Below, in pieces: positions 10,428 to 29,267 of a DNA stretch of 64,000 bases. Below the pieces are notes generated by a model that was not told the DNA's origin, made no database searches, and saw nothing but the letters and a program-made list of their open reading frames with translations. Source of the DNA: Burkholderiaceae bacterium. GTDB taxonomy: Bacteria; Pseudomonadota; Gammaproteobacteria; Burkholderiales; Burkholderiaceae_C. Position 1 is the first letter of the stretch, and the number at the start of each line of letters is the position of its first letter. The position numbers were made by a program, and so were the translations under genes. Location: contig JAGOPK010000001.1 of the NCBI GenBank assembly GCA_017992055.1, positions 310,001 through 374,000 of the forward strand, written 5' to 3'.

Positions 10428-11224
10428 ACCTCACCGAACTGCGCCAGATGCAGCAGACGCTGCAGCAAGGCATCGCCGGCGACGCAGGCGACGCTGTGCG
10501 AGCCATCGCACTGCTGAGGCCCCGGCCCGGCGGTGGTGCGCCGGCGCTGCAGGTCTACCGCCAGGCCCATGGCGCACGCCTGGCCGCGGCCCTGGCCGAC
10601 AACCATGCGGTGCTGGTTCTAGCCCTGGGTGACGAGGGTTTTGCGCGGCTGGCCGCGGCCTATGTGGCGGCGCAGCCGTCGCTGACGCCGTCGATCCGCT
10701 GGTTCGGCCATCGCCTGGCGGAGTTCATGGACCAGGCCGGTGCCGATCTGGTGCCGCATCCGGCCCTGGCCGACTTGGCGCGCATGGACTGGGCGCTGCG
10801 TGCGGCCTTCGATGCCGGCGATGCCCAGGTGCTGGGGCGCGACGAGCTGCTGGGCCTGGCCGCCGCCGACTGGCCGGCGCTGCGTTTCGACCTGCATCCC
10901 TCGGTGCAGCGGCGGGCGCTGCGCTGGGCGGTGGAGCCGGTGTGGCAGGCGCTGGATGCGGCCGAGCCGGGTGCCGAACCCGACCTGCCCGAGCCGGTGG
11001 CCCAGGCGCACACCTTGCTGGTCTGGCGCCAGGGCCTGGCCACGCGCTGGCGCTCGCTGTCCGAGACCGAAGCCGGGCTGCTGCAGGCGCTGGACCAGGG
11101 TGCCGACTTCGCGGCGCTGTGCGCCCAGGCCGGCGATGCGGCCACGGCCGCCGGCCTGCTGGCGCAGTGGCTGGCCGACGGCCTGCTCAGTGCGGCCTTG
11201 CCGCAGCGCGCCGACCCAGGCTGA
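10424..11224 (+). CDS. bufC: bufferin partner protein (DUF2063/HvfC family)
   Basis: A 266-residue protein of the DUF2063 family that always accompanies MNIO enzymes and is thought to present the precursor peptide. The N-terminal half carries the family pattern [24 protein letters not shown] and the [19 protein letters not shown] segment. The C-terminal part resembles a partner or winged-helix-like module. It overlaps bufB by ATGA. Its last 38 bases overlap the 3' end of the convergent protease. No DoxX-like membrane gene follows, so this operon is a minimal three-gene version. Confidence 0.85.
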
Positions 11225-12887
11225 AGACACCGGCCAGGCCGACCAGCAGCAGCAGCGCCGATGCCGGCTCCGGCACCGCCGAGACGCTCCAGGCCAGGCC
11301 GAAGCTCTGCAGGCTGTTGCCCACCAGGTCGTAGCGCTCGCCCTTCCAGTCGACGACGATGAAGTACTCGCCCGCGGCGGCCAGGTCGAACGACAGGTGC
11401 TCGGTGTTCAGGTACTTGGCGTCCGACTCGGCCACCAGCACCGAGCTGCCCGGGCCGTTCTTGCGCCAGACCTGCAGGGCCAGGTCGGTGAAGAATTGAT
11501 CGCTGGCGGACAGGCTGCCGTCGTCCAGCACGCCCTCGTAGCTGCGGCCGACAAACCAGTTCAGCGTGGCGCTCAGGTGCTGGTTGGCCGACAGCGCCTG
11601 GCTGAAGCTGTAGACCACCTCGCCGTCCTGCGCGACGCTGGCGTAGTCCCAGCCCAGCTGGGAGATGCTGCCGCCGCCCAGGCCGGCCAGGTCGTGGTCG
11701 CCCGAGGCGAACTGGTCGAAGGCCGCGTTCAGGTCCAGCGCGCCGGCGCCGCTGGTCCAGTCCAGCGCCTGGCTGGTGCGCAGCACGCCGTCCCCACCCA
11801 GGCTCTGGCCGTTGTCCCAGCCTTCGATCTTGCGCGCCGAGTTCAGCAGCACGGCCTTGATGACCTGGCCGTTGCGGCTGGCTTGCGAGCCGGCGAAGCG
11901 GTCGTAGGCCAGGTCGTTGAGCAGGGCCACGCCACCGGCGACCATGGGCGCGGCGAAGCTGGTGCCCTCCGCGTCCCTGCGGTACCAGTTGTTGGCGCCG
12001 TTGCTGGGATCGCTGCCGCCGGCGTTGCCGCCGGTGGTGCCGCCGTAGTAGGCGGTGGTGATGTTGGTGCCGGGTGCCACCAGGTCGACGCGGGCGCGCA
12101 CACCGGCGACGAAGCCATCGGGCCCGCTGTAGTCGCTGGGCGAGCGGCTGGAGAGGCCGGCCACCTGCCGGTAGGCGTCCAGGTCGTTGCCCAGCGCGCC
12201 GACAATGATGCTGTTGTAGCCCGAGCCGGGCGAGTTCACGGTGTTGGTGGTCGGCCCGTTGTTGCCGGCGCTGAAGACCACGGTCTTGCCGCTGGCCCGG
12301 GCCATGCCGTCCAGCGCCAGCGAGAACGCGCTGTCCCCCGCCAGGGACCACCGGCCGCCCCAGCTGGAGTTGACCACATCGGCCTGGCGGCCGGCCACGC
12401 CGGTCAGCAGGGCCGTGGCATAGGGCTGGGTGAAGGCCCAGCCGCTGTTCCAGTTGAACGAGGTGCCCTGGCCGAAACTGGTGGCGATCGCGCCCGACCA
12501 GAGCTGCGCACCGTGGGCGATGCCCTGCTGGTAGCCCAGGCTGCCACGACCGGCGGCGACGGTCGCCACCATGGTGGCGTGATCGTCGAACTCGCCCATG
12601 CGCCCGGCATCCACCCCCAGGCCCTGGAGCAGTTGGCGGGCGTCCAGGAAGGTGCTGACCTGGCCCAGCGTCTCGTGTCCGCTCCAGACATGGCCGCCCT
12701 CGATGCTGGCGAGGACGCTGCGGCTGCCGGTGTAGCCCGCTGCATAGAAGCGGTTGGCGCCGATGAAGTCGTTCAGCGACATGCCGTCGAAGGCATTGGT
12801 GCCGGTGTTGCTGCTGACGATGGCGCCGGCCGTGCCGCTGATTCCGGCCGCTAGCAGGCCGATGATGGCGGACTTGTATGCACTCAT
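11187..12887 (-). CDS. S8 (subtilisin-like) serine peptidase with PEP-CTERM anchor
   Basis: A 566-residue exported protease: signal peptide (residues 1-22), an S8 domain with H103 (FDDHATMVATVAAG), oxyanion Asn N209 (SAGNNG) and nucleophile S310 (GTSFAAPMVAGG), then a C-terminal beta-type domain. The C-terminal sorting tag is VPEP at 538-541, a hydrophobic stretch and RR. The catalytic Asp is not visible; its place reads VLASIEGGHVW, with E63. PEP-CTERM proteins are processed by exosortase and linked to exopolysaccharide export; no exosortase is in the window. It is tail-to-tail with bufC, overlapping 38 bases. Confidence 0.87.
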   Translation of the reverse strand: MSAYKSAIIGLLAAGISGTAGAIVSSNTGTNAFDGMSLNDFIGANRFYAAGYTGSRSVLASIEGGHVWSGHETLGQVSTFLDARQLLQGLGVDAGRMGEFDDHATMVATVAAGRGSLGYQQGIAHGAQLWSGAIATSFGQGTSFNWNSGWAFTQPYATALLTGVAGRQADVVNSSWGGRWSLAGDSAFSLALDGMARASGKTVVFSAGNNGPTTNTVNSPGSGYNSIIVGALGNDLDAYRQVAGLSSRSPSDYSGPDGFVAGVRARVDLVAPGTNITTAYYGGTTGGNAGGSDPSNGANNWYRRDAEGTSFAAPMVAGGVALLNDLAYDRFAGSQASRNGQVIKAVLLNSARKIEGWDNGQSLGGDGVLRTSQALDWTSGAGALDLNAAFDQFASGDHDLAGLGGGSISQLGWDYASVAQDGEVVYSFSQALSANQHLSATLNWFVGRSYEGVLDDGSLSASDQFFTDLALQVWRKNGPGSSVLVAESDAKYLNTEHLSFDLAAAGEYFIVVDWKGERYDLVGNSLQSFGLAWSVSAVPEPASALLLLVGLAGVFSLGRRAAARPH

Positions 12888-15390: not shown

Positions 15391-16107
15391 CTAGGCCTGC
15401 CGGCGCGCCCGGTACAGCGTGTCCAGCGTGATGTGGCGCACTTCGAGCTTGCTCTGCTCGATGTGGGCGCGCAGCAGGCGCTGGGCCTCGTCGGCGCGCC
15501 GCCGCGTGATGGCGCGCAGGATGCGCGCATGCTCGTCGTAGGTGGCCTCCACCCGCGCCGGCTTGGTGAAGTCGAGCCGGCGGATGATGCGGATGCGCTC
15601 GGTGATCTGGCGGTGCACACGCGCCATCTCGCGGTTGCCGCTGGCCTGCACCAGGCGGCTGTGGAAGTCTTCGTCGAGCTGGCCGACGGTGGCGCCATCG
15701 GCCTCGCGCTGCGCCGGCTCGACCTGCCAGATGGCGGCCAGCGCATCCAGGGCCGGCCGCTCCAGGGCCTGGGCCAGCAGCTGGGCCGCATGGCCTTCGA
15801 TCAGGATGCGCAGATCGTAGAGCTCGTCGAAGACATCGAAGTCGAGTGGCGCCACCTGCCAGCCCACCTTGGGCAGCACCTGCAGAAAGCCCTCGCGCTC
15901 CAGCCGCTGCAGGGCCTGGCGCAGCGGCGTGCGGCTGACGGCCAGGCGCTGGGCCAGCTCGCTTTCGCTGCAGCGCTCGCCGGGCATCAGCGCAAAGTCG
16001 AAGATCATGCGCTTGAGCTGGGCATAGGCCTGGTCGGCCAGGGTCAGCGGTTCGGCCTCGGGGCGTGCAGGGGTCAGGGCCAGGGCCAGGGGATTCGGGG
16101 ACGACAT
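15391..16107 (-). CDS. GntR-family regulator, FCD (FadR-type) domain
   Basis: A 238-residue transcription factor. A winged helix-turn-helix fills the N-terminal third (LADQAYAQLKRMIFDFALMPG, then SESELAQRLAVSRTPLRQAL), and the rest is an all-helical FCD ligand domain with likely metal-binding His/Asp residues (DLRILIEG, DEDFHSRL, EHARILRAI). ATG at 16107 is preferred over an upstream in-frame start because the extra 29 residues are low-complexity. It sits between the AtzH-like gene and the aldehyde dehydrogenase and could control either group. Confidence 0.85.
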   Translation of the reverse strand: MSSPNPLALALTPARPEAEPLTLADQAYAQLKRMIFDFALMPGERCSESELAQRLAVSRTPLRQALQRLEREGFLQVLPKVGWQVAPLDFDVFDELYDLRILIEGHAAQLLAQALERPALDALAAIWQVEPAQREADGATVGQLDEDFHSRLVQASGNREMARVHRQITERIRIIRRLDFTKPARVEATYDEHARILRAITRRRADEAQRLLRAHIEQSKLEVRHITLDTLYRARRQA

Positions 16108-16159: not shown

Positions 16160-16591
16160 TCAGGCGCCGCCATCGGACCCGTCGGACCAGGCAATCATGC
16201 TGACATGGGCGGCGACGATCTTCCAGCCAGCGGCGCCCGGGCCTGGCCCCAGCCGCGCCCAGGTCTGGGTCTGGAAGCCACGCAGCGGCGTGTCGCTGCG
16301 CACAAACTCCACCTGGGCCATGGCCAGGTCGGGCCCGTAGCTGGTGATGCGCAGGTTCTCCAGCCGGCGCGTGAAGTCGGGCGCCGGCGTGGCGGCGCGA
16401 AAGGCCGCCATCTGTGCAAAGCCCAGCTGGCGGTCGGCGATGCCGTAGCGGGTGAGGCGCGCATCGTCCCAGAAGAAGGCGGTCAGCGTGGCCACGTCGT
16501 TGGTCATCAGCGCGCGCTCGTAGGCATGGAACAGCGCCGTGACCTCGGCCAGCACGGCGGGGTCGTCGATCAGGTGGGCGGACAGGGTCAT
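16160..16591 (-). CDS. atzH: AtzH-like (formerly DUF3225) NTF2-fold protein
   Basis: A 143-residue SnoaL/NTF2-like protein of the AtzH/HpxZ family, with HAYERALMTNDVATL, FFWDDARLTRYGI and FQTQTWARL. AtzH proteins act beside AtzF-type amidases and have been linked to dicarboxyurea hydrolysis in cyanuric-acid catabolism; HpxZ relatives accompany oxalurate amidases. Here it lies 15 bases downstream of the allophanate hydrolase and ends the eleven-gene run. The exact reaction is inferred from that context. Confidence 0.8.
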   Translation of the reverse strand: MTLSAHLIDDPAVLAEVTALFHAYERALMTNDVATLTAFFWDDARLTRYGIADRQLGFAQMAAFRAATPAPDFTRRLENLRITSYGPDLAMAQVEFVRSDTPLRGFQTQTWARLGPGPGAAGWKIVAAHVSMIAWSDGSDGGA

Positions 16592-16606
16592 GCTGGGTGC
16601 TGGCCT

Positions 16607-18460
16607 TCAGCGGCTGGCCATGTAGGCGCGCCAGCCGCCGTGGGCGCTGATGTCGGTGGCGCTGTCCAGCGCCGCGCCTTCGCAGATGAAGCCCTTGACC
16701 CAGCGTGGCCCATCCTCGCCGCCCAGGCCCGCTTCGAGTTCGATCGAGCCCAGGCCCAGCGGCGGCGGGATCAGCGCGAGGAACGAGCCCAGCTGGTCCA
16801 TCGGCAGGGCATAGACCTCGACCTCGATGCGGGCGCCGTCCTGGCGGCCCTCGGCCACGCGCGCCAGGCCGGGCTTGGGCGGCACGGTGCCGGGCAGGGC
16901 AAACAGCCGGTAGGCCGGCGCGGTGCGGGTGCGCGCCAGCAGGCGCGCGCCGCGCTCGACCAGCTGGCCGTGCAGCGGCATGCCCTGCAGATGGGCGCCC
17001 ACCACGGCCAGCGCCAGCGTGGGCGCGGCGGCCGGCGCCTGCGTCAGCCGGGGCTCGTCGGCCGGCGTGGCGCGCAGCCGGCAGCCCAGCGGCAGCTGGC
17101 GCGCCGCCTGCCAGCGCAGGCCCAGCCGGGCCAGGGCCGCATCGCTGCCGCCGGGGGCGATGAAGGTCACGCCAAAGGGCAGGCCGGCGGGCGTGAAGCC
17201 GCTGGGCAGGGCCAGCGCGGCCTGGCCCAGCAGGTTGACGAAGTTGGTGAAGCGGCCCAGCTCGCTGTTGCGCAGCACCGGCGCGGCGGCCACCGCGGCC
17301 CGCGTGGGATGGGTGGGCGCGGTGGGCACCATCAGCACATCGATCTGCGACCACAGCGGCGCGATGCGCTGGCGCAGCGCCTCCAGCGCATAACGGGCGT
17401 CGAAGGCATCGGTGGCGCTGTAGCGCTTGGCCGCGGCAATGACCTCGCGCACCGTCGGGTCCAGCGCACCGGGGCGTTGGTCGAGCAGCTCGCGCACCAC
17501 CGTGTGGCGCTCGGCCACCCAGGGGCCGTCGTAGAGCAGACGCGCCACCTCGTACAGCGGCGCCATGTCCACCGGCACCGGCGTCAGGCCCCAAGCGCGC
17601 AGCTGGGCCAGGGCCTGTTCCCAGGCGCGGTCGTAGCCCAGCTCGGCATCGCAGCCGGCCGCCATCGGCACGCCCACGCGCAGCGCTGCGGCGCCGCGGC
17701 CCAGCTCGGGTGGCTGCAGCAGCGGCTGCTGGAACAGCGGCTCGGCCGCGGCCGGGCCTTCGATCACCGACATCACGCGCGCCGCGTCGTCGACGGTCAG
17801 CGCAAACACCGACACCACGTCCAGCGTGCGGCAGGCCGGCAGCACGCCGGCCATGGGCACACGGCCCGGCGAGGGCTTCAGGCCCACCAGGTTGTTGAAG
17901 CCGGCCGGCACGCGGCCCGAGCCGGCGGTGTCGGTACCCAGCGCAAACGGCACCAGGCCACGCGCCACCACCGAGGCCGAGCCCGAGCTGCTGCCGCCGC
18001 TGACATAGGCGGGGTCGAAGCTGTTCGGCACCTCGCCATAGGGCGAGCGCGTGCCCACCAGGCCGGTGGCGAACTGGTCGAGGTTGGTCTTGCCGACCAG
18101 CACCGCGCCGGCATCGATCAGCCGCTGCACCGTGGCGGCATGGCGCCCGGGCGTGAAGGCGAAGGCCGGGCAGGCGGCGGTGGTGGGCAGGCCGGCGACG
18201 TCGATGTTGTCCTTCACCGCAAAGGGCACGCCGTACAGCGGCAGCTCGCGGGCACCGGGCCGGGCCTCCAGCTGCTCGATCTGGGCGGCGACAAAGCCCA
18301 GCTCGCAGCGGTGGATCCAGGCCGCATCGTCGGCGCTGGCGGCCAGCCGGGCCAGCAGCGGCGCCAGCAGGGCCTGGGGCGTGGCGCCCGCGGCATAGGC
18401 GTCGCGCCAGTCGGCCAGGGTCAGGGGGGAAGGGGCAGCGGTCATGGGCTCATCCAGCAT
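16607..18460 (-). CDS. atzF: allophanate hydrolase
   Basis: Hydrolyses allophanate to ammonia and CO2 (via N-carboxycarbamate). The 617-residue protein has an amidase-signature domain with triad K83 (AVKDNID), cis-Ser S157 (SGGSSSGSA) and nucleophile S181 ([13 protein letters not shown]). A distinct allophanate-hydrolase C-terminal domain starts around residue 450, with [17 protein letters not shown]. It is not fused to urea carboxylase. M1 (18460) overlaps the upstream hydrolase gene by 11 bases; M6 (18445) is an alternative start just past it. It is the central enzyme of this cluster. Confidence 0.92.
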
Positions 18461-19127
18461 CGCACAGGGCCGCCATCACCGCGGCGGCCGGCGCCGTCCA
18501 GCCGACGATGCCACCCTGGGCGGTGAGCATCGCCAGCGTGGCGGCCTTGAACTCGGGAAAGTAGCTCTCGGTGCAGTCTTCCACCAGCAGGCAGTCGTAG
18601 CCGCGGTCATTGGCCTCGCGCATCGTGGTCTGCACGCAGACCTCGGTGGTGACGCCGCCGATCAGCAGCTGGGTGATGCCGCGCGCCTGCAGCTCGGCCT
18701 GCAGCGGCGTGGCGTGGAACGCGCCCTTGCCGGGCTTGTCGATGACCAGCTCGCCGGCGATGGGCGCCACCTCGGGCACGATGGCATGGCCGGGCTCGCC
18801 GATCACCAGCACCCGACCCATGGGCCCAACATCGCCGATGCGCAGGCTGGGCGTGCCGCGGTCCCTTTTGGCCGGCGGGCAGTCGCTCAGATCGGGCGCA
18901 TGGCCTTCGCGGGTGTGGATCACGAAGCCGCCCGCCGCGCGCCAGGCCGACAGCAGGCCGGCGCAGCTGGGCAGGATGGCCTGCAGCCGCGTCACGTCGT
19001 TGCCCAGCGAGGCGCCAAAGCCGCCGGGCTCGACGAAGTCGCGCTGCAGGTCGATCAGCACCAGGGCCGCATGGGCCAGGTCCAGTGTGAACGGGAAGGG
19101 CTTGGCGCTGGCGATGGCGACGCTCAT
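18450..19127 (-). CDS. isochorismatase-like cysteine hydrolase (triuret/biuret hydrolase candidate)
   Basis: A 225-residue cysteine hydrolase with triad D26 (VLIDLQRDF), K131 ([10 protein letters not shown]) and C164 ([20 protein letters not shown]). It shares its motif order and spacing with the biuret hydrolase encoded at 23281-23964 but clearly differs elsewhere, for example QGGIVGW against QGGVFGAVS. The family includes biuret, triuret and ureidoacrylate hydrolases. Because a better biuret hydrolase is present, I propose triuret or another oligourea as substrate. It overlaps the ABC ATPase upstream by ATGA and atzF downstream. Confidence 0.8.
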
Positions 19128-20695
19128 GCCGCCTCCGCCGCGCTGCCGGCTGACGGTGCCGCCGATCCATGGCCCTTGCCACCCATGTGCGCACCCAGCT
19201 CATGCCGGTCGGCATTGGCCGCTGGCACGTCGTGCACGATGCGGCCCTCGCTGATGACCACGATGCGGTCGGCCAGCTGAAGCAGCTCGTCCAGATCCTC
19301 GCTGAGCAGCAGCACGGCGCAGCCACGCTGGCGGGCGGCCAGCAGGCGGCCATGGATCTCGGCCACCGCGGCGAAGTCCAGGCCGAACACCGGGTTGCTG
19401 ACCAGCAGCAGGCGTGCATCGCCCGACAGCTCGCGCGCCAGCACCGCCCGCTGCACATTGCCGCCGGACAGCGTGCGGATGGCCGCCTTCTCGCCGCGGG
19501 TCTTGACGCCGTACTCGTCGATCCACTCGCGCGCGCGGCGCGCCAGCCGGCCCCAGCGCACCCAGGCGCCGGTGGCTGCCGGCGTGGCATAGGGCGCCTC
19601 GTCGAACTGACGCAGCGCCATGTTCTGCGCCACGCTCAGCTCGCCCACGCAGGCGTTGTGCAGCGGCTCCTCGGGCAGGGCGCGCACCTTCAGGCGGCGA
19701 TTCTCGCGGCGCGTGGCGGCATAGGCCTGGCCGGCCACGCTGACCCGGCCAGCGGCGCGGGCACGCTGGCCGGTCAGGGCCTGCATCAGCTCGCGCTGGC
19801 CATTGCCCGAGACACCGGCCACGCCGACGATCTCGCCGCCGCGCACCTGCAGGCTGAAGCCCTGCACGGCCGGCTCGCCGCGGTCGCCGATGACCTGCAG
19901 GTCGGCGATGTCCAGCTGCACTTCGCCGGGCTGCTGGGCCTGGCGGGCCAGCGGCGCCGACAGGGTCTTGCCGGCGCCGACCATGGCCTGGGCCAGGCGC
20001 TGCGGCGAGGTGGCGGCCACCGCACCGGTCTCGGCCAGCTGGCCGCTGCGCAGCACGCTCACATCGTCTGCATGCTCGCTGACCTCGCGGAACTTGTGCG
20101 TGATCATGATGATGGAGCAGTCGCCGGCATGGGCGCGGTCGCGCAGCGCGCCCAGCACCTCGTCGGCCTCCTGGGGCGTCAGCACCGAGGTCGGTTCGTC
20201 CAGGATCAAGAGGCGTGGCTGCAGGAACAGCTGCTTCAGGATCTCCAGCTTCTGCTTCTCGCCGGCCGACAGGTCCAGCGGCGTGGCGTCCAGCGGCAGG
20301 CGGAAGGGCGCGGTGTCCAGAAAGGCCTCCAGCTCGGCGCGCAGCCGCCGCCAGGGCAGCACGGCCGGCAGGTGGCCGCGTGCCAGCAGCAGGTTCTCGG
20401 CCACCGTCATGCCCGGCACCACCGTGAAGTGCTGGTAGACCATGCCGATGCCCAGGTCGCGCGCAATGGTCGGGCTGGTGATGGCCTGCTCGCGCTGGTC
20501 GATCATCACCGCGCCGTCGTCGGGCCGGTAGTAGCCGACCACGCACTTGACGAAGGTGCTCTTGCCGGCGCCGTTTTCACCCAGCAGCGCATGCACGGTG
20601 CCGGGCCGCACGGTCAGCGACACGCCGTCTAGCGCGGTGAAGGCGCCAAAGCGCTTGGTCAGGTTGTAGGTCTCCAGATGCAGCGCTCGGTTCAT
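19124..20695 (-). CDS. ABC transporter ATP-binding protein, BMP/nucleoside type (two ATPase domains)
   Basis: A 523-residue double ATPase. Domain 1 has a full Walker A (GENGAGKST), signature [12 protein letters not shown] and Walker [10 protein letters not shown]. Domain 2 has the degenerate P-loop VSGNGQREL, signature [16 protein letters not shown] and a Walker B that reads VSNPVFGLD, as usual for this class. It powers BMP-family importers (nucleosides, purine-like compounds), so its partners are the permeases at 23991-26047, from which it is separated by another transporter. It overlaps both neighbours by ATGA. Confidence 0.9.
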
Positions 20696-21522
20696 GCGTT
20701 CATCTCCCGGCGGAAGACCTCCAGCGTGTGCGCCTTGACGCGCACGAACTCGGGGTCGGCCGTGTCCTCGGGCTTGCGCGGGCGCGGCAGGTCGAAGGGC
20801 ACGATCTCGGCGATGCGCGTGGGCCGGCGCGTCAGCAGCAGGATGCGGTCGGCCAGGAACACGGCGTCTTCCAGGTCGTGGCTGACGATGACCATGGTGG
20901 TGCCGGTGGCGATGTGCGCCTCCTGCAGCTTGGCGCGGATGAACAGCGTCATCTCGAAGTCGAGTGCGCTGAAGGGCTCGTCGAGGAACAGCACCTCGGG
21001 CCGCGTGGCCAGGCTGCGCATGATGCACACGGTCTGCATCTGGCCGCCCGACAGCTCATACGGATAACGCTTCAGGTCGAAGCGGATCTCGAACAGCTGG
21101 ACCAGCTCGTCCACCCGGGCCTTGACCTCGGCGGCCTTCATGCCCTTGCGCTTCAGCGGGTAGGCGATGTTGTCCCAGGCCGTGATCCACGGGAACAGCG
21201 CGTCGCGGTAGTTCTGGAACACATAGCCGATCTGGGTTTCGCGCAGCGTCTTGCCGTCGAACAGGATCTCGCCCGAGTCCACCGGCACCAGGCCGGCGAT
21301 CATGTTCATCAGCGTGCTCTTGCCGCAGCCGTTGGGGCCGAAGATCGAGACGATCTTGCTGCGCGGCAGGTCGAGGTGGAAGTTGGTGTACAGCGGCGCG
21401 CCGGCAAAGCTCTTGCACAGGCCGCGCACCGTGACATGGGTCTTGGGCGCGGCCGCCAGCTCGGTGACGCTGCGGATAGCGGGCGCGGGCGGCAGCACCG
21501 CCGCGGGAATCGGTCCACTCAT
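20692..21522 (-). CDS. ABC transporter ATP-binding protein, NitT/TauT type
   Basis: A 276-residue ATPase with Walker A FGPNGCGKST, Q-loop YVFQNYRDALFPW, signature ELSGGQMQTVCIMRSLA and Walker B VLFLDEPFSALD followed by an H-loop (SHDLEDAVFLADR). The pattern is that of SsuB/TauB/NrtD ATPases. About 30 residues precede the ABC domain. It overlaps the permease gene by ATGA upstream and the BMP-type ATPase gene downstream. The transported compound is inferred from the cluster to be a small ureido compound. Confidence 0.9.
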   Translation of the reverse strand: MSGPIPAAVLPPAPAIRSVTELAAAPKTHVTVRGLCKSFAGAPLYTNFHLDLPRSKIVSIFGPNGCGKSTLMNMIAGLVPVDSGEILFDGKTLRETQIGYVFQNYRDALFPWITAWDNIAYPLKRKGMKAAEVKARVDELVQLFEIRFDLKRYPYELSGGQMQTVCIMRSLATRPEVLFLDEPFSALDFEMTLFIRAKLQEAHIATGTTMVIVSHDLEDAVFLADRILLLTRRPTRIAEIVPFDLPRPRKPEDTADPEFVRVKAHTLEVFRREMNA

Positions 21523-22283
21523 GCTTTTCCACTCCAGTGAATCAGCTTCTTCTCGACCAGCAGAAAGCCCAGGTTCAGCAGATAACCCAGGGCGCCGGTG
21601 ACCAGGATGGAGCAGTACATCTCCTTGACGTTGAAGACCTGCTGCGCGTCGATGATGCGGTGGCCCAGGCCCAGCTCGCTGCCGATGAACATCTCGGCCA
21701 CGATGACGATCACCAGGGCCATGCTGACCGCGCTGCGCAGGCCCACGAAGGTCTGGGCCAGGCTTTCCATCAGCATCACGTCCTTGAACACATGCCAGCG
21801 GCTGACGCCCATGATCTGCGCCGCCATCACCCGCGTCTTCTTCGCGTTCATCACGCCATAGGCGCTGTTGAACAGCACGATCAGCATCGCGCCGAAGCTG
21901 GCGATGGCGATCTTGTTGATGTCGGTGATGCCGAAGATCAGCAGGAACAGCGGGATCAGCGCCGAGCTGGGCGTGGAGCGGAAGAAGTCGATCACGAACT
22001 CCACGCTGCGGTAGGCGCCTTCGCTGCTGCCCAGCATCACGCCCAGCGGCACGCCGATGGCCACGGCGATGGCAAAGCTGGCCAGCGTGCGGTACACGGT
22101 GGCCCACAGGTCGGGCAGGATGGCGCCGTTGGCAAACACGCCCACCATGTGGGCCAGGGTGTCGGCCGGTGGCGGCAGCAGCACGGCCTTGACCCACTGG
22201 GCCGAGATCATCAGCTGCCACACGGCCAGCAGCAGCAGCGGGCCGATGACGGGCAGCAAGCGCCGGTCGAGCAGGCGGGTCAT
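21519..22283 (-). CDS. ABC transporter permease, NitT/TauT type
   Basis: A 254-residue inner-membrane permease with about six helices and the binding-protein-dependent transport motif (MGVSRWHVFKDVMLMES, the EAA loop that docks on the ATPase). It belongs to the SsuC/TauC group. It overlaps both the substrate-binding protein gene (22280-22283) and the ATPase gene (21519-21522) by four bases, so these three form one tightly coupled importer. Confidence 0.9.
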   Translation of the reverse strand: MTRLLDRRLLPVIGPLLLLAVWQLMISAQWVKAVLLPPPADTLAHMVGVFANGAILPDLWATVYRTLASFAIAVAIGVPLGVMLGSSEGAYRSVEFVIDFFRSTPSSALIPLFLLIFGITDINKIAIASFGAMLIVLFNSAYGVMNAKKTRVMAAQIMGVSRWHVFKDVMLMESLAQTFVGLRSAVSMALVIVIVAEMFIGSELGLGHRIIDAQQVFNVKEMYCSILVTGALGYLLNLGFLLVEKKLIHWSGKA

Positions 22284-23266
22284 GCCGTGTACAGCAGCGA
22301 CTTGACGTCGAGCCGGCGGCTGAAGATCTTGCGCTCGGTGAACACGTCGAAGAACTTCTGGAAGTACTCGATGTCGGCGGGCTTGAACTCGTTGTACAGC
22401 GTGAAGCCGGACAGCGGCACCTCCTTGACCAGGGCCTCCTCGATGGCGGTGAAGCCGTCCATGTGCTTGCGCGATTCGTCGGGGTTCTTGCGCACCCAGT
22501 CCACCGCCTTGGCATAGGCCGCCACATAGCGCCTGGCCAGCTCGGGCCTGTCTTTCAGGAAGGCGGTGGTCACGCTGGCCGAGCCGCCGAACCAGGGCGC
22601 ATCGGCATTGCCTAGCACGTACTTGGCGATCACGCCGGGCTCCAGCACCCGGGTCAGGCCCTTCAGCCGGCCGGCCGTGCCGGTGGGTTCCAGTGTGTAG
22701 ACCGCGTCGATCTGGCCCGCGGCCAGCGCCGGCACATGCTGGCCGATGGGCAGCTCGGTGACCTGCGGGTTGGCGATGCCGTTCTTCTCCAGGATGATCT
22801 TGGCCAGCGTCACGTTCTGGATGCCGGGGCCCGAGGCCACCTTCTTGCCGGCCAGCTCGCTGATGGCCTTGATGGGCGAATCCTTGGGCACGACAAATTC
22901 GTCCAGCACCAGCAGGCGGTTGCTGGGGTTGCTGCAGATGATCTTGAACAGGTTGGGGCTGGTGATTTCGGCCAGGCCCAGGGCGGCGCTGGCCGTGCCG
23001 TTGGCACTGCCGTGGATGCGGCCGGCGATCATGGCCTCGGCCACCTGCTGGGCGCTGGCGAACTTGGCGCCTTCCACCTGCAGGCCGGCTTCCTTGAAGA
23101 TGCCGCGCTCCAGGCCCACGTACAGCGGCAGGCCCGAGGCGATGGGCCAGAAGCCGATCAGGATCTTGTCGTCGGCGGCGAGGGACTTGCGCGTCAGGCC
23201 CAGCAGGGCCGGCATGGCGATGCCGGCTTGGATCAGGCGGCGGCGGGACGGGGACGGGTGGCTCAT
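22280..23266 (-). CDS. ABC transporter substrate-binding protein, NMT1/THI5-like
   Basis: A 328-residue periplasmic binding protein of the NitT/TauT class. The N-terminus has a Tat-like signal (SRRRLIQAG, then a hydrophobic core ending near SLAADD). The body has IGFWPIASGLPLYVGLERGIFKEAGL, the standard first lobe for this family. ATG at 23266 is chosen so that the signal peptide is N-terminal. It lies 14 bases downstream of the biuret hydrolase gene. Substrate is inferred as biuret or a relative. Confidence 0.88.
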   Translation of the reverse strand: MSHPSPSRRRLIQAGIAMPALLGLTRKSLAADDKILIGFWPIASGLPLYVGLERGIFKEAGLQVEGAKFASAQQVAEAMIAGRIHGSANGTASAALGLAEITSPNLFKIICSNPSNRLLVLDEFVVPKDSPIKAISELAGKKVASGPGIQNVTLAKIILEKNGIANPQVTELPIGQHVPALAAGQIDAVYTLEPTGTAGRLKGLTRVLEPGVIAKYVLGNADAPWFGGSASVTTAFLKDRPELARRYVAAYAKAVDWVRKNPDESRKHMDGFTAIEEALVKEVPLSGFTLYNEFKPADIEYFQKFFDVFTERKIFSRRLDVKSLLYTA

Positions 23267-23280
23267 GGCGGGCTCCGGGG

Positions 23281-23964
23281 TCAGAACGTGGACAGCAGTT
23301 CCAGCACCGCGCTGGAGTCGGACACGGCGCCGAACACGCCGCCCTGCATCTGGATCATCTTCAGCGCGGCCTCGTGGTTGCTGTGGTCGGTGGCGCCGGT
23401 GCAGTCGCTGAGCATCACGCATTCGAAGCCGCGGTCATTGGCCTCGCGCATGGTGGTGTGCACGCACACGTCGGTGGTGATGCCGGTGAGGATCAGGTTG
23501 CGGATGCCGCGTACATGGAGGATCAGCTCCAGGTCCGTCGCGCAGAAGCTGCCCTTGCCCGGCTTGTCGATGATGGGCTCGCCGGCCGCCGGGTACAGCT
23601 CGGGAATGATGTCCCAGCCCGGCTCGCCACGCACCAGGATGCGGCCGCAGGGACCGGCGTCGCCGATGCCCGCGCCCATCTGCCGGCTGCGCCAGCGCTT
23701 GTTGGCCGGCAGGTCGGCCAGGTCGGGGCGGTGGCCTTCGCGGGTGTGGATCACGTGCAGGCCCACGCGACGCGCCTCGGCCAGCAGCTTCTTCAGTGGT
23801 TCGATCGGCGCCCGCGTATTGCTGAGGTCGTAGCCCATCTTGTCCACATAGCCGCCGACGCCGCAGAAGTCGGTCTGCATGTCGATGATCACCAGCGCGG
23901 TGTTCTTGGGCGTGAACTCGCCGTCGTAGGGCCAGGCATAGGGAACGGAACTCAGGGTCGGCAT
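23281..23964 (-). CDS. biuH: biuret amidohydrolase
   Basis: Isochorismatase-fold cysteine hydrolase that cleaves biuret to allophanate and ammonia. The 227-residue protein has triad D28 (VIIDMQTDF), K134 ([10 protein letters not shown]) and C167 ([19 protein letters not shown]). Long stretches, including the WPYDG start, [24 protein letters not shown]-like and [10 protein letters not shown] segments, match the characterised Rhizobium biuret hydrolase as I remember it. Its product is the substrate of AtzF in the same cluster. It is placed between two importer modules. The related enzyme RutB is less likely given those matches. Confidence 0.9.
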
Positions 23965-23990
23965 GGGGGCTCCGGTGTCGTGGTCGGGGT

Positions 23991-24911
23991 TCAGCGCGAG
24001 ACGCCCAGCTCCATCGGCGCGCCCTTGATGGCCCGCTGCGGCGAGCACGAGGCGACCAGGATCAGCAGGGTCAGCGCATAGGGCATGGCGTTGAACAAAT
24101 GCGTGCCGCCGCTGACGCCCACGCTCTGCAGCGCCGGGCCCACGGTGCCGGCACCGCCAAACAGCAGGGCCGCGCCCAGGCAGTGCCAGGGCCGCCAGCG
24201 GGCGAAGATCACCAGGGCCACGGCGATCAGGCCCTGTCCGCTGGACAGGCCTTCGTTCCAGCTGCCCGGGTAGTGCAGGCTCAAGCTGGCGCCGCCCAGG
24301 CCGGCGATGAAGCCGCCGGCCGTGGTGGCGGCGATGCGCACGCCGTTGACCGAATAGCCCAGGGCCCGTGCGGCATCGCTGGAATCCCCCGCCATGCGCA
24401 CCACCAGGCCCCAGCGGGTATGAACCAGTCCCCAGGCCAGCAGGCCGGCCAGGGCCACGCCGATCGGGAACAGCGCATTGATGGCCAGTGCGTTCTGCAC
24501 CCCGGGGCTGCTGCTCCAGGCGCCCAGCGGCACGGCCGGGATCTGCGGTGCTTGCGGCTGGATCAGGCCCTTGCCCAGGTAGAAGGCCAGGCCGGCACCC
24601 AGCAGCATCAGCGCGATGCCGGTGGCGATGTCCGACACCCGCTGCAGCGAGCACAGCAGGCCGTGCAGCAGGGCCAGGGCGGCGCCGCTGCAGCCGGCGG
24701 CCAGCACGCCGATCCAGGCCGAGCCCGTGAGGTAGGCGCCGCCGAAGCCGGCCATGGCGCTGAACACCAGCACGCCTTCCAGGCCCAGGTTGATGCGGCC
24801 GGACTTTTCGGTCAGGCACTCGCCCAGGCTGACGAACAGAAAGGGCGTGCCCACGCGCACCGCGCCGCCGACGATGGCCAGCAGCAGATCGAACCAGGCA
24901 TTGGCATCCAT
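23991..24911 (-). CDS. ABC transporter permease, BMP/nucleoside type (second permease)
   Basis: A 306-residue permease with about nine helices. The motif [21 protein letters not shown] near residue 35 and [15 protein letters not shown] are typical of the YufQ/NupQ-like permease of BMP-family importers. Its ATG shares one base with the stop of the preceding permease. It pairs with that permease, the binding protein at 26061-27176 and the ATPase at 19124-20695. Confidence 0.88.
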
Positions 24912-26047
24912 CAGGCCACTCCCCCACGCGCCACGGCCACCAGGCGCGGCTTGGCGCGCACCGGCAGGCGGATCTCGAACAGCCGCCCACGCAGCGCCTC
25001 GGCCGCGAGGATGGCCACGAAGGCAAAGCCCTGCAGCACCAGCACCGACGCATCGGGCAGGCCCATGCGCCGCTGCAGCAGGCTGCCGGCCGCGGCAAAG
25101 CCGCCAAACAGCAGGGCCACCGGCGGAATGGCCCAGGGGTTGTGGCGTGCGACAAAGCTGACCAGGATGCCGGTGTAGCCCAGGCCGGCGATCACCGAGG
25201 CATTGGCCGCCGTGTGCACGGCCGCCACCTCCAGCGCGCCGGCCAGGCCGGCGCTGGCGCCGCCCAGCGCGCAGGCCAGCACCAGCAGCGCGCCGGTGGG
25301 CAGGCCCACCAGGCGTGCCGCCCGGGCATTGCCGCCGACCACGCGCAGCGCAAAGCCCGAGGCGGTGAAGCTCAGCCACAGGCCGGCGGCCAGGCACAGC
25401 AGCACGCCGATGACCAGGCCCCAGTGCACATCGCCGAGCAGGCTGTCGGCGCTGATGGGGCCGATGCGCAGGCTCTCGGCCAGCGGGCGTGTGCTGGGCT
25501 TGTTCAGGCTGGCCGGGTCGCGCAGCGGGCCTTCGACGAAGTGCTTGAACAGCGCGATGGCGATGTAGCCCAGCAGCAGGCTGGAGATGGTCTCGTTGAC
25601 GCCGCGCCACTGGCGCAGTGCGCCGGCCAGCGCCACCCACAGCGCGCCCAGCAGGGCGCCGGCGGCCAGCACGGCCACGCTGCCGGTGATGCCGCTCAAG
25701 TTGGGCATCAGATAGGGCAGCACCGCGCAGCCCAGCGCCCCCAGCACCAGCGCGCCTTCACCGCCGATGACGGTGAGCCCGGCCCGCGCCGGCAGGGCCA
25801 CGGCCAGCGCGGTGAGCATCAGGGGCGCGGCGCGCTGCAGCGTGTTCTGCCAGCTGAAGGCATCGCCGAAGGCGCCCTTGAACAGCAGGCTCCAGGCCTC
25901 GGCCGGGCTGCCGCCGCCGAACCAGACGAACACGCCAAAGGCCAGCAGGGCCGCGGCCAGCGCGCCCAGCGGCAGCAGCACGGCCTCGGCCGGCGCCTGC
26001 CAGCCGTTGGAGGCCTCTTTGGGAGGGGAGACGAGGGCGGTGGCCAT
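24911..26047 (-). CDS. ABC transporter permease, BMP/nucleoside type (first permease)
   Basis: A 378-residue permease. It has [31 protein letters not shown] split over two helices, [12 protein letters not shown], and [15 protein letters not shown], the family's conserved loop (YufP/NupP-like). It lies 13 bases after the binding-protein gene and shares one base with the next permease gene. It is part of an importer for nucleoside-like or ureido compounds; the specific ligand is inferred from the enzyme neighbours. Confidence 0.88.
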
Positions 26048-26060
26048 GGCAGCGCCGGGC

Positions 26061-27176
26061 TCAGACCTTGCCGATCACGCCTTCGACCAGGTAGTTCATG
26101 CCCTCCAGCTCGACATCGGTCTGCTTGAAGACCTTGCCCTTGGGGATCACCAGCTTGCCGGTGTTGTCCTTCAGCTCGCCGGCAAAGATGTCGAAGCTGC
26201 CGGCCATCATCTTGGCGCGCACGGCCTCGGCGTTCTTGCGCGCGCCTTCCGAGACGGCGCTGCCATAGGGCGAGCTCTTGACGAAGCCGTCCTTGAGCCC
26301 GCCGCGCACGAAGTTGGGATGCGGCTTGCCACTTTGCGCGGCCTCGATGATCTGCTTGTAGGCGCTGATCCAGTTCCATTCGGCGCCGGTCAGATAGGCC
26401 TGGGGCGCCAGCTTGGCTTGGGAGGCGTGGTAGCCGCAGACGAACTTGCCGCGCTTGGCCGCGGTCTCGACGATGACCTTGGGCCCGTCCACATGCATGG
26501 TGAACACGTCCACGCCCTGGTCGGCCAGGCTGTTGGTGGCCTCGGCCTCCTTGACCGGCATGCTCCAGTCGCCGGTGAAGATCACCGTGGTGCTGATCTT
26601 CGGGTCCACCGAGCGCGCGCCCATGGTGAAGGCGTTGATGTTGCGCAGCACCTGCGGGATGGGCTTGGCGGCGATGAAGCCCAGCTTCTTGCTCTTGCTG
26701 GCATGGCCGGCGATGACGCCGTTGAGGTACTGGCCCTCGTCGATGTAGCCGAAGAAGCTGCCGGTGTTGGCCGGGTGCTTGCCTTGGGTCCACATGCCGC
26801 CGCAGTGGGCAAAGCGCACGCCGCCGTTCTTGCCGGCGACCGCCAGCATGTGCGGATCAAAGTAGCCGAAGCTGGTGGGAAACAGCAGCGCCGCGCCGTC
26901 CTGGGCGATCATGCCCTGCATGGTCTTCTGCACGCCGGTGGTCTCGGGCACGTTCTCCTCTTCCACCACCTTGATGCCGGCCATCTTCTTGACCAGGGCC
27001 ACGTTCTCGGCATGGGCCTGGTTGTAGCCATAGTCGTCGCGCGGACCCACATAGATGAAGCCCACGGTCAGCGGCTTCTGCGCCAGCACCAGCGGAGAGG
27101 TGCCTGCGGCGGCGGTCAGCGCGCCAGCGCCCTTGATCCAGTCACGACGGCTCCAGGCGTTGGGGCTCTTCGACAT
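26061..27176 (-). CDS. BMP-family ABC transporter substrate-binding protein
   Basis: A 371-residue periplasmic binding protein of the basic-membrane-protein (Med/PnrA) family. It has a clear twin-arginine signal (SRRDWIKGAG then an Ala-rich core ending VLAQK). Family landmarks are VGFIYVGPRDDYGYNQAH, FGYFDPH, and GYHASQAKLAPQAYLTGAEWNW near the C-terminal lobe. AAGGAG sits well placed before the start. It is the first gene of the long minus-strand run, so its promoter region (27177-27426) probably controls all eleven genes. Confidence 0.9.
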   Translation of the reverse strand: MSKSPNAWSRRDWIKGAGALTAAAGTSPLVLAQKPLTVGFIYVGPRDDYGYNQAHAENVALVKKMAGIKVVEEENVPETTGVQKTMQGMIAQDGAALLFPTSFGYFDPHMLAVAGKNGGVRFAHCGGMWTQGKHPANTGSFFGYIDEGQYLNGVIAGHASKSKKLGFIAAKPIPQVLRNINAFTMGARSVDPKISTTVIFTGDWSMPVKEAEATNSLADQGVDVFTMHVDGPKVIVETAAKRGKFVCGYHASQAKLAPQAYLTGAEWNWISAYKQIIEAAQSGKPHPNFVRGGLKDGFVKSSPYGSAVSEGARKNAEAVRAKMMAGSFDIFAGELKDNTGKLVIPKGKVFKQTDVELEGMNYLVEGVIGKV

Positions 27177-27426: not shown

Positions 27427-28389
27427 ATGAGTGTTTTCCTGTTCAAGCGCGTGGCCACCCTGCTGGCCACGCTGGCGGTGGCCTCGGTGCTGGTGTTCGC
27501 GGTGCTGGAGCTGCTGCCCGGCAACGTGGCCCAGGTGATCCTGGGCGAGACGGCCACGCCCGAGGCCGTGGCCGCGCTGGAAAAGAAGCTGGGCCTGGAC
27601 CAGCCGCCGCTGCAGCGCTACCAGCACTGGATCGCCGGCCTGCTGCAGGGCCGCACGGCCGACAGCTACAGCTATGGCACGCCGACCTGGGAGCTGATCG
27701 CCGAGCGCCTGCAGGTCACCGTGCCGCTGGCCGCGCTGGCCATGGGCCTGACCACGCTGCTGGCCCTGGTGCTGGGCGTGTACGCGGCCTCGCGCCACAA
27801 CCGCATCGGCGATGTCGGCGTGATGGCGCTGAGCCAGGTCGGCATCGCCATCCCCAACTTCTGGTTCGCCATCCTGCTGATCCTGGTGTTTGCGGTGAAG
27901 CTGCAATGGGTCAGCGCCGGCGGCTTTCCGGGCTGGGTCGAGGACGATGGCGGTGGGCTGTGGGACGGCACCAAGGCCCTGCTGCTGCCGGCCGTGGCCC
28001 TGGCCGTGGTGCAGGCGGCGATCCTGGCGCGGGTCACGCGCTCGGCGGTGCTGGAGGTGATGCGCGAGGACTTCGTGCGCACCGCCCGCGCCAAGGGCCT
28101 GTCGCGCCGCGCCACGCTGTGGAAGCATGTGCTGCGCAACGCCATGATCCCGGTGCTGACCATCATGGGCCTGCAGTTCGCCAACCTGATCACCGGCACC
28201 ATCGTGGTCGAGAACGTCTTCGTGCTGCCCGGCATCGGCCGCCTGGTGTTCCAGGCCATCGCCAACCGCGACCTGGTGGTGGTGCGCGACGTGGTGATGC
28301 TGCTGGTGGCGGTGGTGGTGCTGGTCAACTTCGTCGTCGACCTGCTGTATGCCGCGGTCGACCCCCGGTTGAAGGCGAGCGACGCATGA
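27427..28389 (+). CDS. dppB: peptide-type ABC transporter permease (DppB-like)
   Basis: A 320-residue permease of the DppB/OppB class with six helices. LELLPGNVAQVILGE near residue 30 and RVTRSAVLEVMREDFVRTARAKGLS (the EAA loop) are diagnostic. It overlaps dppC by ATGA. The matching ATPases and binding protein are about 4 kb downstream. The gene is divergent from the biuret importer across 250 bases. The substrate may be di- or oligopeptides, or another amide given the amidase in the same group. Confidence 0.88.
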   Translation: MSVFLFKRVATLLATLAVASVLVFAVLELLPGNVAQVILGETATPEAVAALEKKLGLDQPPLQRYQHWIAGLLQGRTADSYSYGTPTWELIAERLQVTVPLAALAMGLTTLLALVLGVYAASRHNRIGDVGVMALSQVGIAIPNFWFAILLILVFAVKLQWVSAGGFPGWVEDDGGGLWDGTKALLLPAVALAVVQAAILARVTRSAVLEVMREDFVRTARAKGLSRRATLWKHVLRNAMIPVLTIMGLQFANLITGTIVVENVFVLPGIGRLVFQAIANRDLVVVRDVVMLLVAVVVLVNFVVDLLYAAVDPRLKASDA

Positions 28390-29267
28390 GCGGCACCGTG
28401 ATCGCCGGCGTGCCGGCCGCCCGCAGCGCCTTGCCCGGCTTCTGGGCGCGGGCCGCCCGCCATCCCAGCTTTCTGATCGGCGCCGTGCTCAGCGCGCTGC
28501 TGGTGGCCGCGGCCGTGCTGTCGCTGTTCTGGTCGCCTTATCCGCCGGCCGACATCGACATCCCCAACAAGCTGGCCGCACCGTCGGCCGCGCACTGGCT
28601 GGGCACCGACAGCCTGGGCCGCGACATCGCCAGCCAGCTGCTGGTGGGGGCGCAGAACAGCATCGTGGTCGGCATCGTCGCCGTGGGCATCGGCGTGCTG
28701 GTCGGTGTGGGCCTGGGCGCCCTGGCCTCGGCGCGGCGTGGCTGGGTGGAGGAGCTGGTGATGCGCTTCGCCGACTTCACCTTCGCCTTCCCGGCGCTGC
28801 TGACGGCCATCATGCTGGGCGCGATCTACGGCCCCGGCCTGATGACCGGCATCGTCGCCATCGGCATCTTCAACATCCCGGTGTTTGCGCGCATCACGCG
28901 CGGCGCGGCCAATGCGGTGTGGGCGCGTGAATACGTGCTGGCCGCGCGCGCGGCGGGCTTCGGCCCCTGGCGCATCACGCTGGACCATGTGCTGCCCAAC
29001 ATCGCCAGCGTGCTGATCGTGCAGGCCACGATCTCGTTCGCCACCGCCATCCTGGCCGAGGCCGCGCTCAGTTATCTGGGCCTGGGCACCCAGCCGCCCC
29101 AGCCCAGCTGGGGCCGCATGCTCAACGAAGCCCAGACCCAGCTGTTCCAGGCGCCGCTGCTGGCGGTGTGGCCGGGCCTGACCATCGCCCTGAGCGTGCT
29201 GGGTCTGAACCTGATGGGCGATGGGCTGCGGGATCTGCTGGATCCGAAGCTGGCGCGGCGGCGCTGA
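28386..29267 (+). CDS. dppC: peptide-type ABC transporter permease (DppC-like)
   Basis: A 293-residue permease of the DppC/OppC class. LGTDSLGRDIASQLLVGAQNS is the family hallmark, and the EAA loop reads EYVLAARAAGFGPWRITLDHVLPN. It starts inside the dppB stop codon, so the pair is translationally coupled. A convergent Bug-family gene follows after 62 bases, so the dpp transcript probably ends here. Confidence 0.88.
   Translation: MSGTVIAGVPAARSALPGFWARAARHPSFLIGAVLSALLVAAAVLSLFWSPYPPADIDIPNKLAAPSAAHWLGTDSLGRDIASQLLVGAQNSIVVGIVAVGIGVLVGVGLGALASARRGWVEELVMRFADFTFAFPALLTAIMLGAIYGPGLMTGIVAIGIFNIPVFARITRGAANAVWAREYVLAARAAGFGPWRITLDHVLPNIASVLIVQATISFATAILAEAALSYLGLGTQPPQPSWGRMLNEAQTQLFQAPLLAVWPGLTIALSVLGLNLMGDGLRDLLDPKLARRR

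Follow-up and report, generated by a model that had tools for sequence, protein, structure and literature searches.

A probable triuret and biuret nitrogen-scavenging operon with a nested second importer in a Burkholderiaceae genome

Triuret and biuret reach soils as impurities of urea fertilisers, and triuret is also a product of uric acid oxidation (PMC7948467). Operons containing TrtA, BiuH, and AtzF, together with the route leading from triuret through biuret to allophanate, were published in 2020 (PMC7948467), and in 2025 a BMP-type transporter was reported beside trtA, biuH, and atzF in nitrifier genomes (PMC12625717). The term "little-described", which a first-pass annotation had applied to the locus presented here, is not supported in view of these two reports. 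The enzymes are known, but the carboxybiuret step has been loosely assigned.

The locus lies in a window of 64,000 nucleotides, that is, the whole stretch of DNA that was analyzed, from assembly GCA_017992055.1 (99.09% complete, 40 contigs). As the first-pass annotation had stated, eleven tightly spaced genes are found on a single strand, namely the minus strand from position 27176 to 16160, with gaps ranging from -11 to +26 nt (13, -1, 26, 14, -4, -4, -4, -4, -11, and 15 nt in order of transcription). Its account of the gene content is likewise backed by Pfam and NCBIfam: an isochorismatase-fold biuret hydrolase, a second isochorismatase-fold hydrolase, an allophanate hydrolase, an AtzH-like protein, and importers of the BMP type (importer 1) and the NMT1 type (importer 2). 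A twelfth gene, encoding a GntR-family regulator (15391..16107, minus strand), is positioned 52 nt downstream of the cluster and adjoins it in many relatives; its best NCBIfam match is phnR_burk with 117 bits, below the cut-off of 271.5. A strict sigma-54 promoter pattern is absent upstream of the first gene in the window and present in two of 16 relatives examined. The cluster genes would be co-transcribed and regulated together.

It is quite probable that these genes form one operon for scavenging nitrogen from triuret and biuret. In the proposed pathway, importer 1 would take up the oligourea, and TrtA would convert triuret to carboxybiuret and ammonia. The AtzH-like protein would most likely decarboxylate carboxybiuret to biuret, a reaction that also proceeds slowly and spontaneously. 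BiuH would then yield allophanate from biuret, and AtzF would release ammonia and CO2 from allophanate. The GntR protein probably controls the operon, and importer 2 probably brings in a carboxylated ureide.

The first hydrolase (23281..23964) is a biuret hydrolase. It matches the NCBIfam equivalog NF050097 with 416 bits (cut-off 370), it matches the solved Rhizobium leguminosarum BiuH (6AZO) with 392 bits, and it displays 13 of 13 BiuH-type residues, including Y, Y, S, D, T, and V at the positions that discriminate TrtA from BiuH (6/6). The second hydrolase (18450..19127) falls below the same equivalog cut-off with 249.5 bits. Its nearest solved relative is the Herbaspirillum BH-1 TrtA (6XIX, 65% identity), with a score of 311 bits versus 229 and 198. 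In the numbering of PMC7948467, the catalytic triad and substrate residues D24, F29, E72, K129, K132, C162, and Q202 are as in TrtA (7/7), and the specificity residues F35, N41, A134, E160, Y187, and I205 are all of the TrtA type (6/6). Judged by its sequence, the protein is the triuret hydrolase TrtA. The ureidoacrylate hydrolase RutB was rejected as an identity for either enzyme, given TIGR03614 scores of 117.9 (BiuH) and 84 bits (TrtA) against a cut-off of 378. The allophanate hydrolase AtzF (16607..18460) is full-length, with 751.6 bits for TIGR02713 (cut-off 511), 157.6 bits for the C-terminal AH_C domain PF21986, and 4GYR as its best solved relative. Across 80 relative loci fetched by TrtA similarity, TrtA-type residues occur in 79 of 81 well-covered TrtA matches, position 134 aside and one stop-containing row left out, and BiuH-type residues occur in 67 of 70 BiuH matches, one of them changed at 134. 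The exceptions are paralogues with 30-39% identity.

The first-pass annotation had also proposed a search for the same gene order in other genomes. In 64 of the 80 loci, all six core genes (binding protein, permease, permease, BiuH, ATPase, and TrtA) are present, and thus the grouping is not a matter of chance. Importer 1 is a conserved partner of BiuH and TrtA. Several of the remaining 16 loci are short or cut contigs, and six with long flanks hold TrtA without the core (L026, L028, L031, L034, L040, and L081). In the window, importer 1 consists of a BMP/PnrA-type binding protein related to AtzT (26061..27176; PF02608, 130.5 bits; best solved relative AtzT, 6PI5, 212 bits), permease A (24911..26047; PF02653, 95 bits), permease B (23991..24911; PF02653, 99 bits), whose start at 24911 overlaps the permease A stop by 1 nt, and a two-domain ATPase (19124..20695). 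In relatives the ATPase follows BiuH; here both BiuH and importer 2 come between it and the permeases. The best NCBIfam match of the ATPase, obtained for a version with a shortened start (19124-20614), is a B6 ABC ATPase with 398 bits, below the cut-off of 670. The guanine-ligand positions of AtzT, Y45, S97, F98, E165, W194, N218, and N220, are occupied in the window binding protein by Y, S, F, Q, W, H, and D. The full AtzT ligand set is thus not matched, and the His and Asp are also found in 3S99. At the Glu165 position, 58 of 65 cluster-type binding proteins have Gln and seven have Ser or Thr. The Glu is present in AtzT, 3S99, and four other BMP proteins, and this purine-type residue is also retained in L031 and L040, where a BMP protein is encoded close to a TrtA.

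Importer 2 is inserted after BiuH and ahead of the ATPase of importer 1, and is formed by an NMT1/SsuA-type binding protein (22280..23266; PF09084, 62.6 bits), a permease (21519..22283; PF00528, 65 bits), and an ATPase (20692..21522; PF00005, 112.7 bits). The solved relatives of the binding protein are all remote. Its AlphaFold model has a mean pLDDT of 76.5 (54-60 for the other four models) and, among the matches listed, resembles SsuA, TauA, THI5, and related proteins with query TM values of 0.54-0.67 and rmsd values of 4.2-8.5. Naming the ligand from the structure was abandoned, since these matches point to none.

The AtzH-like protein (16160..16591; PF11533, 138 bits), a putative carboxybiuret decarboxylase, is the sole match of its kind in the genome. 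Its pocket contains Tyr22 and Arg46, with a Thr at the position of Arg66. No AtzE over the cut-off is present in the same genome (best match 295 bits, cut-off 426), nor anywhere in the genomes of five of five relatives with AtzE-less clusters (L008, L020, L022, L071, and L085). A class-wide search gave AtzH-like matches in only eight of 369 genomes and was followed by an order-wide search with matches in 77 of 399, 68 over the cut-off; the order-wide set was used without the window's own match and without those scoring no more than 59 bits. Arg66 is found in 0 of 28 proteins from TrtA/BiuH clusters without AtzE, in 63 of 64 beside AtzE, and in 22 of 22 elsewhere, counts for which two proteins without the Arg (L199 and L208) were reassigned post hoc from "other" to the cluster class with the residue already seen. 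Before that reassignment the counts were 0/26, 63/64, and 22/24. Four rows first dropped also fit the pattern, and the single AtzE-adjoining protein without Arg66 (L219) has a Cys instead. The switch requires five changes on the best tree but only two when supported branches alone are counted, a number with which an independent-pairs test cannot reach significance. For the Pseudomonas ADP AtzH, the reduced variants reported in the portion of the study available (PMC6219798) include neither Arg66Ala nor Arg66Lys, and thus Arg66 is not essential for the usual AtzH substrate. The Arg66 pattern suggests that the window protein decarboxylates carboxybiuret. A carboxybiuret decarboxylase has been published as TrtB, a name that would extend to the window protein if the two belong to one family.

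Other readings of the enzymes can be weighed against this pathway. Guanylurea hydrolases are close relatives (PMC9800807); yet, in a comparison covering TrtA, BiuH, and RutB, it is most improbable that the second hydrolase belongs with these or with other isochorismatase-fold amidases, given the 65% identity and the 13 of 13 key residues that it has in common with TrtA, several of which matter by mutagenesis (PMC7948467), and its low RutB score. The cluster could also be the lower part of s-triazine breakdown with AtzD located elsewhere, cyanuric acid breakdown having been the setting of the first BiuH studies (PMC5806882), importer 1 resembling AtzT, and AtzD being located within the same cluster or close to it in seven of the 80 relatives. 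That prospect is very slim. No AtzD match (PF09663) exists in the window, where the first-pass annotation had also seen no AtzD, or in the whole assembly, while two control genomes (G250 and G251) were positive and 14 standard controls were silent; the genomes of three relatives contain none either. A cyanuric acid origin was set aside on these grounds, and with TrtA a ring-opening enzyme is unnecessary. The earlier view that the pathway starts from triuret or biuret rather than from an s-triazine ring is thereby upheld. It is conceivable, although on balance doubtful, that the AtzH-like protein is vestigial or acts on dicarboxyurea or an oxalurate-like compound, with carboxybiuret decarboxylating by itself. 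The half-life of carboxybiuret is ∼20 min in vitro (PMC7948467), and the decarboxylation step may be dispensable because none of AtzE, AtzH, and cupin is seen in seven of the 64 core loci (none of the 80 loci combines the cupin with AtzH or with AtzE). An oxalurate-type role is conceivable, the score against HpxZ (NF033625) being 134.3 bits with a cut-off of 135. However, the window protein and all of the first-set proteins (42/42) retain Tyr22 and Arg46, the genome has no AtzE over the cut-off to make dicarboxyurea, and Arg66 has disappeared from the proteins of TrtA/BiuH clusters without AtzE but persists nearly everywhere else.

With regard to the importers, a purine cargo for importer 1, which would tie the enzymes to it only via purine oxidation products, is in keeping with the guanine bound by AtzT, its closest solved relative (PMC6834077), and with the label bmpA-nupABC nucleoside transporter given to the corresponding genes in 2025 (PMC12625717). 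We regard it as unlikely, for all cluster-type proteins (65/65) carry another residue in place of Glu165, a guanine ligand in AtzT, and retain Trp194 and Ser97. A dedication of both importers to triuret and biuret, which the first-pass annotation held, is also rather improbable. In the window and in five of the 80 loci, importer 2 sits inside the operon, and in 21 more it is located upstream, but it is unseen by the test used in 54, some owing to contig or flank ends, and it is missing from an Ideonella plasmid operon. Among 250 genomes of the order it occurs in ten. Five of these ten contain neither a P0002 match at E≤1e-50 nor a BiuH over the cut-off, and in them it adjoins AtzF or AtzE; therefore it is probably not dedicated to biuret. 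Two genomes (G108 and G184) have it beside AtzF, and in these BiuH, urea carboxylase, and AtzE are all missing over the cut-off. Of the two importers, then, the first is tied to BiuH and TrtA, and the dedication of the second is doubtful. Importer 2 would be a captured module, originating in the branch of ureide metabolism that involves AtzF and AtzE, and its probable cargo is a carboxylated ureide and not biuret.

A broader proposal, put forward tentatively and with slightly less than even confidence, is that the AtzH/HpxZ family is split by Arg66. Members beside AtzE would keep it for a two-carboxylate substrate, and those of AtzE-less triuret clusters would have lost it repeatedly as carboxybiuret decarboxylases. 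The BMP receptor with its changed Glu165 would belong to a purpose-built triuret/biuret importer, accompanied by a nested importer for a carboxylated ureide. A search of the open literature, outside which most subscription papers fall, revealed neither a report of the Arg66 split nor a ligand-tested oligourea importer. With the residue patterns, triuret-type AtzH proteins and BMP binding proteins might be told apart from their purine and triazine relatives by simple inspection of the sequence. Such tests would sharpen annotation, the current names including HpxZ, nucleoside transporter, and isochorismatase family hydrolase, and would open both steps to direct testing.

The locus can be compared with four known systems. 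In the operon of Herbaspirillum sp. BH-1 and Rhizobium leguminosarum 3841 (PMC7948467), TrtA, BiuH, and AtzF occur together with the same active-site and specificity residues as in the window; in a Herbaspirillum frisingense relative (L085), importer 2 is located upstream, whereas in the window it occupies a nested position, with BiuH before it and the ATPase of importer 1 after it. The nitrifier trtA-biuH-atzF genes with bmpA-nupABC (PMC12625717) similarly place a BMP-type importer, there termed a nucleoside transporter, beside the three enzymes, and a GntR gene is named in the legend to the synteny figure; unlike the window, no second importer is described in the available portion of that report. 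Pseudomonas sp. ADP, with atzDGEHF and AtzT (PMC6219798, PMC6834077), has AtzF, an AtzH homologue, and an AtzT-type importer in common with the window, whose genome, in contrast, has no AtzD match and no AtzE over the cut-off, and whose proteins differ at Arg66 of AtzH and at Glu165, Asn218, and Asn220 of AtzT. The Ideonella dechloratans plasmid NZ_CP088082.1 has the order of the window (BMP binding protein, two permeases, hydrolase, ATPase, hydrolase, atzF, hpxZ, and GntR) but no nested second importer, and its hydrolases and importer are annotated only generally. Relative to the published pathway, what is new is a second importer nested in the operon and an AtzH-like protein whose altered pocket suggests a different substrate.

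The cluster proposed in the first-pass annotation, an eleven-gene system for oligourea (biuret-type) uptake and hydrolysis, is indeed present; all eleven genes lie on the minus strand with intergenic gaps of -11 to +26 nt, and their families were assigned by Pfam and NCBIfam. It opens with the BMP-type binding protein (27176-26061), permease A (26047-24911) and permease B (24911-23991) of the first ABC importer (importer 1), followed by the biuret hydrolase, BiuH (23964-23281). The binding protein (23266-22280), permease (22283-21519) and ATPase (21522-20692) of an NMT1-type importer (importer 2) precede the double ATPase of importer 1 (20695-19124). The remaining genes encode a second hydrolase (19127-18450), the allophanate hydrolase AtzF (18460-16607) and an AtzH-like protein (16591-16160), with a GntR gene 52 nt further on. 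As judged by eye, both binding proteins start with twin-arginine-like signal sequences (27129-27152 and 23228-23248, minus strand). Diverging from the operon are two dipeptide-type ABC permease genes (about 27427-29267, plus strand), the first called by eye and the second scoring 255 bits to GsiD, which is under the cut-off; no neighboring gene for a binding protein or an ATPase was seen.

The key gene of the cluster is that of the second hydrolase, which by its sequence is the triuret hydrolase TrtA. Among proteins of solved structure, the triuret hydrolase from Herbaspirillum sp. BH-1 is the closest (311 bits, 65% identity), versus 229 and 198 bits for biuret hydrolases, and the NCBIfam cut-off for BiuH is passed by BiuH and failed by TrtA. 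At catalytic and specificity positions named in PMC7948467, the second hydrolase is identical to TrtA in 13 of 13 cases, and the BiuH of the window is likewise identical to that from R. leguminosarum. With position 134 left aside, the pattern is kept in 79 of the 81 TrtA and 67 of the 70 BiuH well-covered matches, one row with a stop being omitted; given that the loci (the best 80 of 545 candidates from one scan of named genomes) were picked by TrtA similarity, this count is a consistency check on a biased sample. The exceptions are paralogues with 30-39% identity. Together with AtzF, which also exceeds its NCBIfam cut-off, these enzymes make up the published route from triuret through carboxybiuret, biuret and allophanate to ammonia and CO2 (PMC7948467). 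A search for the cyanuric acid hydrolase AtzD, which detected it in two control genomes and was silent in 14 standard controls, found none in the window or in the whole genome. The initial interpretation was thus right as to substrate class, an oligourea with no s-triazine ring, but not in regarding the pathway as little described, for the triuret route had already been published.

The same gene order, suggested as a check in the first-pass annotation, does occur elsewhere. Six core genes (those for the BMP-type binding protein, the two permeases, BiuH, the double ATPase and TrtA) are all found in 64 of the 80 loci, most of which belong to Burkholderiales or Alphaproteobacteria and one to Ectothiorhodospiraceae. 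Permease B and BiuH are separated by a formamidase gene in 31 of the 80, among them L008 (NF009803, 552 bits, cut-off 406), L009, L010 and L020. Four loci (L060, L065, L074 and L080) contain a cyanuric acid hydrolase gene between BiuH and the double ATPase (573 bits in L060, cut-off 360); it fills the slot of the window's importer 2 and, in some genomes, connects the cluster with the breakdown of s-triazines. In three more it is placed otherwise (L044, cut; L086, upstream; L058, farther off). Neither gene is in the window. These slots reveal a modular cluster, with a fixed importer-BiuH-TrtA core and interchangeable steps for entry and exit.

The most useful result is a pair of residue signatures, by which both the carboxybiuret step and the ligand of the importer become testable. 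A single AtzH-like gene is present in the window genome, where no AtzE scores over the cut-off; nor does any in the five searched relatives having AtzE-less clusters. In a first set of proteins, Arg66 (AtzH numbering) is found in 23/23 AtzH-like proteins beside AtzE and in 0/19 without it; four rows dropped for a stop near the end fit this pattern too. Another 74 loci, drawn from order-wide and class-wide matches and from the Ideonella plasmid, form a second set; the 71 with a match have Arg66 in 40 of 41 proteins beside AtzE (the sole exception, L219, has Cys), in 0 of 6 that adjoin TrtA but no AtzE, and in 22 of 24 that adjoin neither. The two non-Arg proteins of the last group (L199 and L208) adjoin BiuH or importer 1 genes; with these reassigned post hoc to the cluster class, after the residue had been seen, the totals are 0/28 for clusters without AtzE (window included), 63/64 beside AtzE and 22/22 elsewhere. 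Column 66 is the most discriminating in the alignment (115 rows, one a duplicate), followed by 53 and 71, 70 and 72. Within Variovorax the residue tracks AtzE, being Leu in L013, L017, L036, L037 and L058 and Arg in L018, L027, L038 and L042. The tree of AtzH-like proteins has five class changes, only two of which are forced by supported branches, and thus the independence of the Arg66 switches is limited.

Dicarboxyurea has two carboxylates and carboxybiuret one, so that carboxybiuret would fit as the substrate of the AtzE-less AtzH-like proteins; against this, Arg66 variants of ADP AtzH were not reported as impaired (PMC6219798). The AtzH-like protein may itself be TrtB, the carboxybiuret decarboxylase already published: the gene directly after TrtA in Herbaspirillum frisingense (L085) is AtzH-like, over the HpxZ cut-off. 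Within the stretch examined, the 64 core loci contain AtzE and AtzH (23), AtzH alone (18), a cupin (15), AtzE alone (1) or none of these (7), and a cupin accompanies AtzE or AtzH in 0 of the 80 loci. Where neither AtzH nor AtzE is present, the gene immediately following TrtA encodes this small, ChrR-like cupin (L039, 10528-10995; 14 further core loci have matches), a possible unrelated substitute for the carboxybiuret step. In Aquibium carbonis (L062), TrtA and the AtzH-like gene have between them a gene (10674-11447) for a protein of 257 residues that has no match in NCBIfam.

The second signature lies in the importer 1 binding protein, whose closest solved relative is AtzT, for which guanine ligands are listed in PMC6834077. 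The position of Glu165 (AtzT numbering) is occupied by Gln in 58 and by Ser or Thr in seven of 65 cluster-type binding proteins. AtzT, 3S99 and four further BMP proteins retain the glutamate; of the four, L031 and L040 are near a TrtA, yet at just 34% identity. All 65 keep Trp194 and Ser97 and have Tyr or Trp at position 45, which makes a flat ligand with different hydrogen bonds likely; triuret or biuret would fit. His at 218 and Asp at 220 are shared with 3S99 and hence little informative.

In five of the 80 loci (L008, L009, L010, L020 and L071) importer 2 is nested, flanked by BiuH and the double ATPase, and in 21 it lies upstream; the test used shows none in 54, in some cases because the contig or flank stops short or BiuH is missing. 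In a six-protein tree, which omits L020, the nested state is confined to one 13-row set with Sphaerotilaceae members, window included, and requires at least four gains or losses. The rows nearest the window (L022, L016 from Roseateles cellulosilyticus, and L023) are without it. Across 250 genomes of the order, the importer 2 binding protein occurs in 10 (E<=1e-60) and P0002 matches, counting BiuH-like ones, in 40 (E<=1e-50). Five of the ten (G108, G138, G152, G184 and G237) are outside these 40 and have no BiuH over the cut-off; importer 2 there neighbors AtzF (G108, G184), AtzE (G138, G237) or both (G152). It is in or adjoining a TrtA cluster in G000, G049 and G178, adjoins importer 1 genes in G158, and is near a gamma-glutamyltransferase gene over the cut-off in G240. 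On the simplest reading, importer 2 would belong to the AtzF/AtzE side and carry a carboxylated ureide. In G108 and G184, genomes of about 2 Mb, AtzF, the NMT1-type importer and GntR are consecutive (L136, 7155-12370; L137, 7175-12354). Neither genome has a urea carboxylase or AtzE over the cut-off, and the arrangement suggests that the importer feeds allophanate hydrolase directly.

The Ideonella dechloratans plasmid carries an otherwise complete operon that lacks importer 2. The cluster in the window is a variant, itself new, of an already known pathway.
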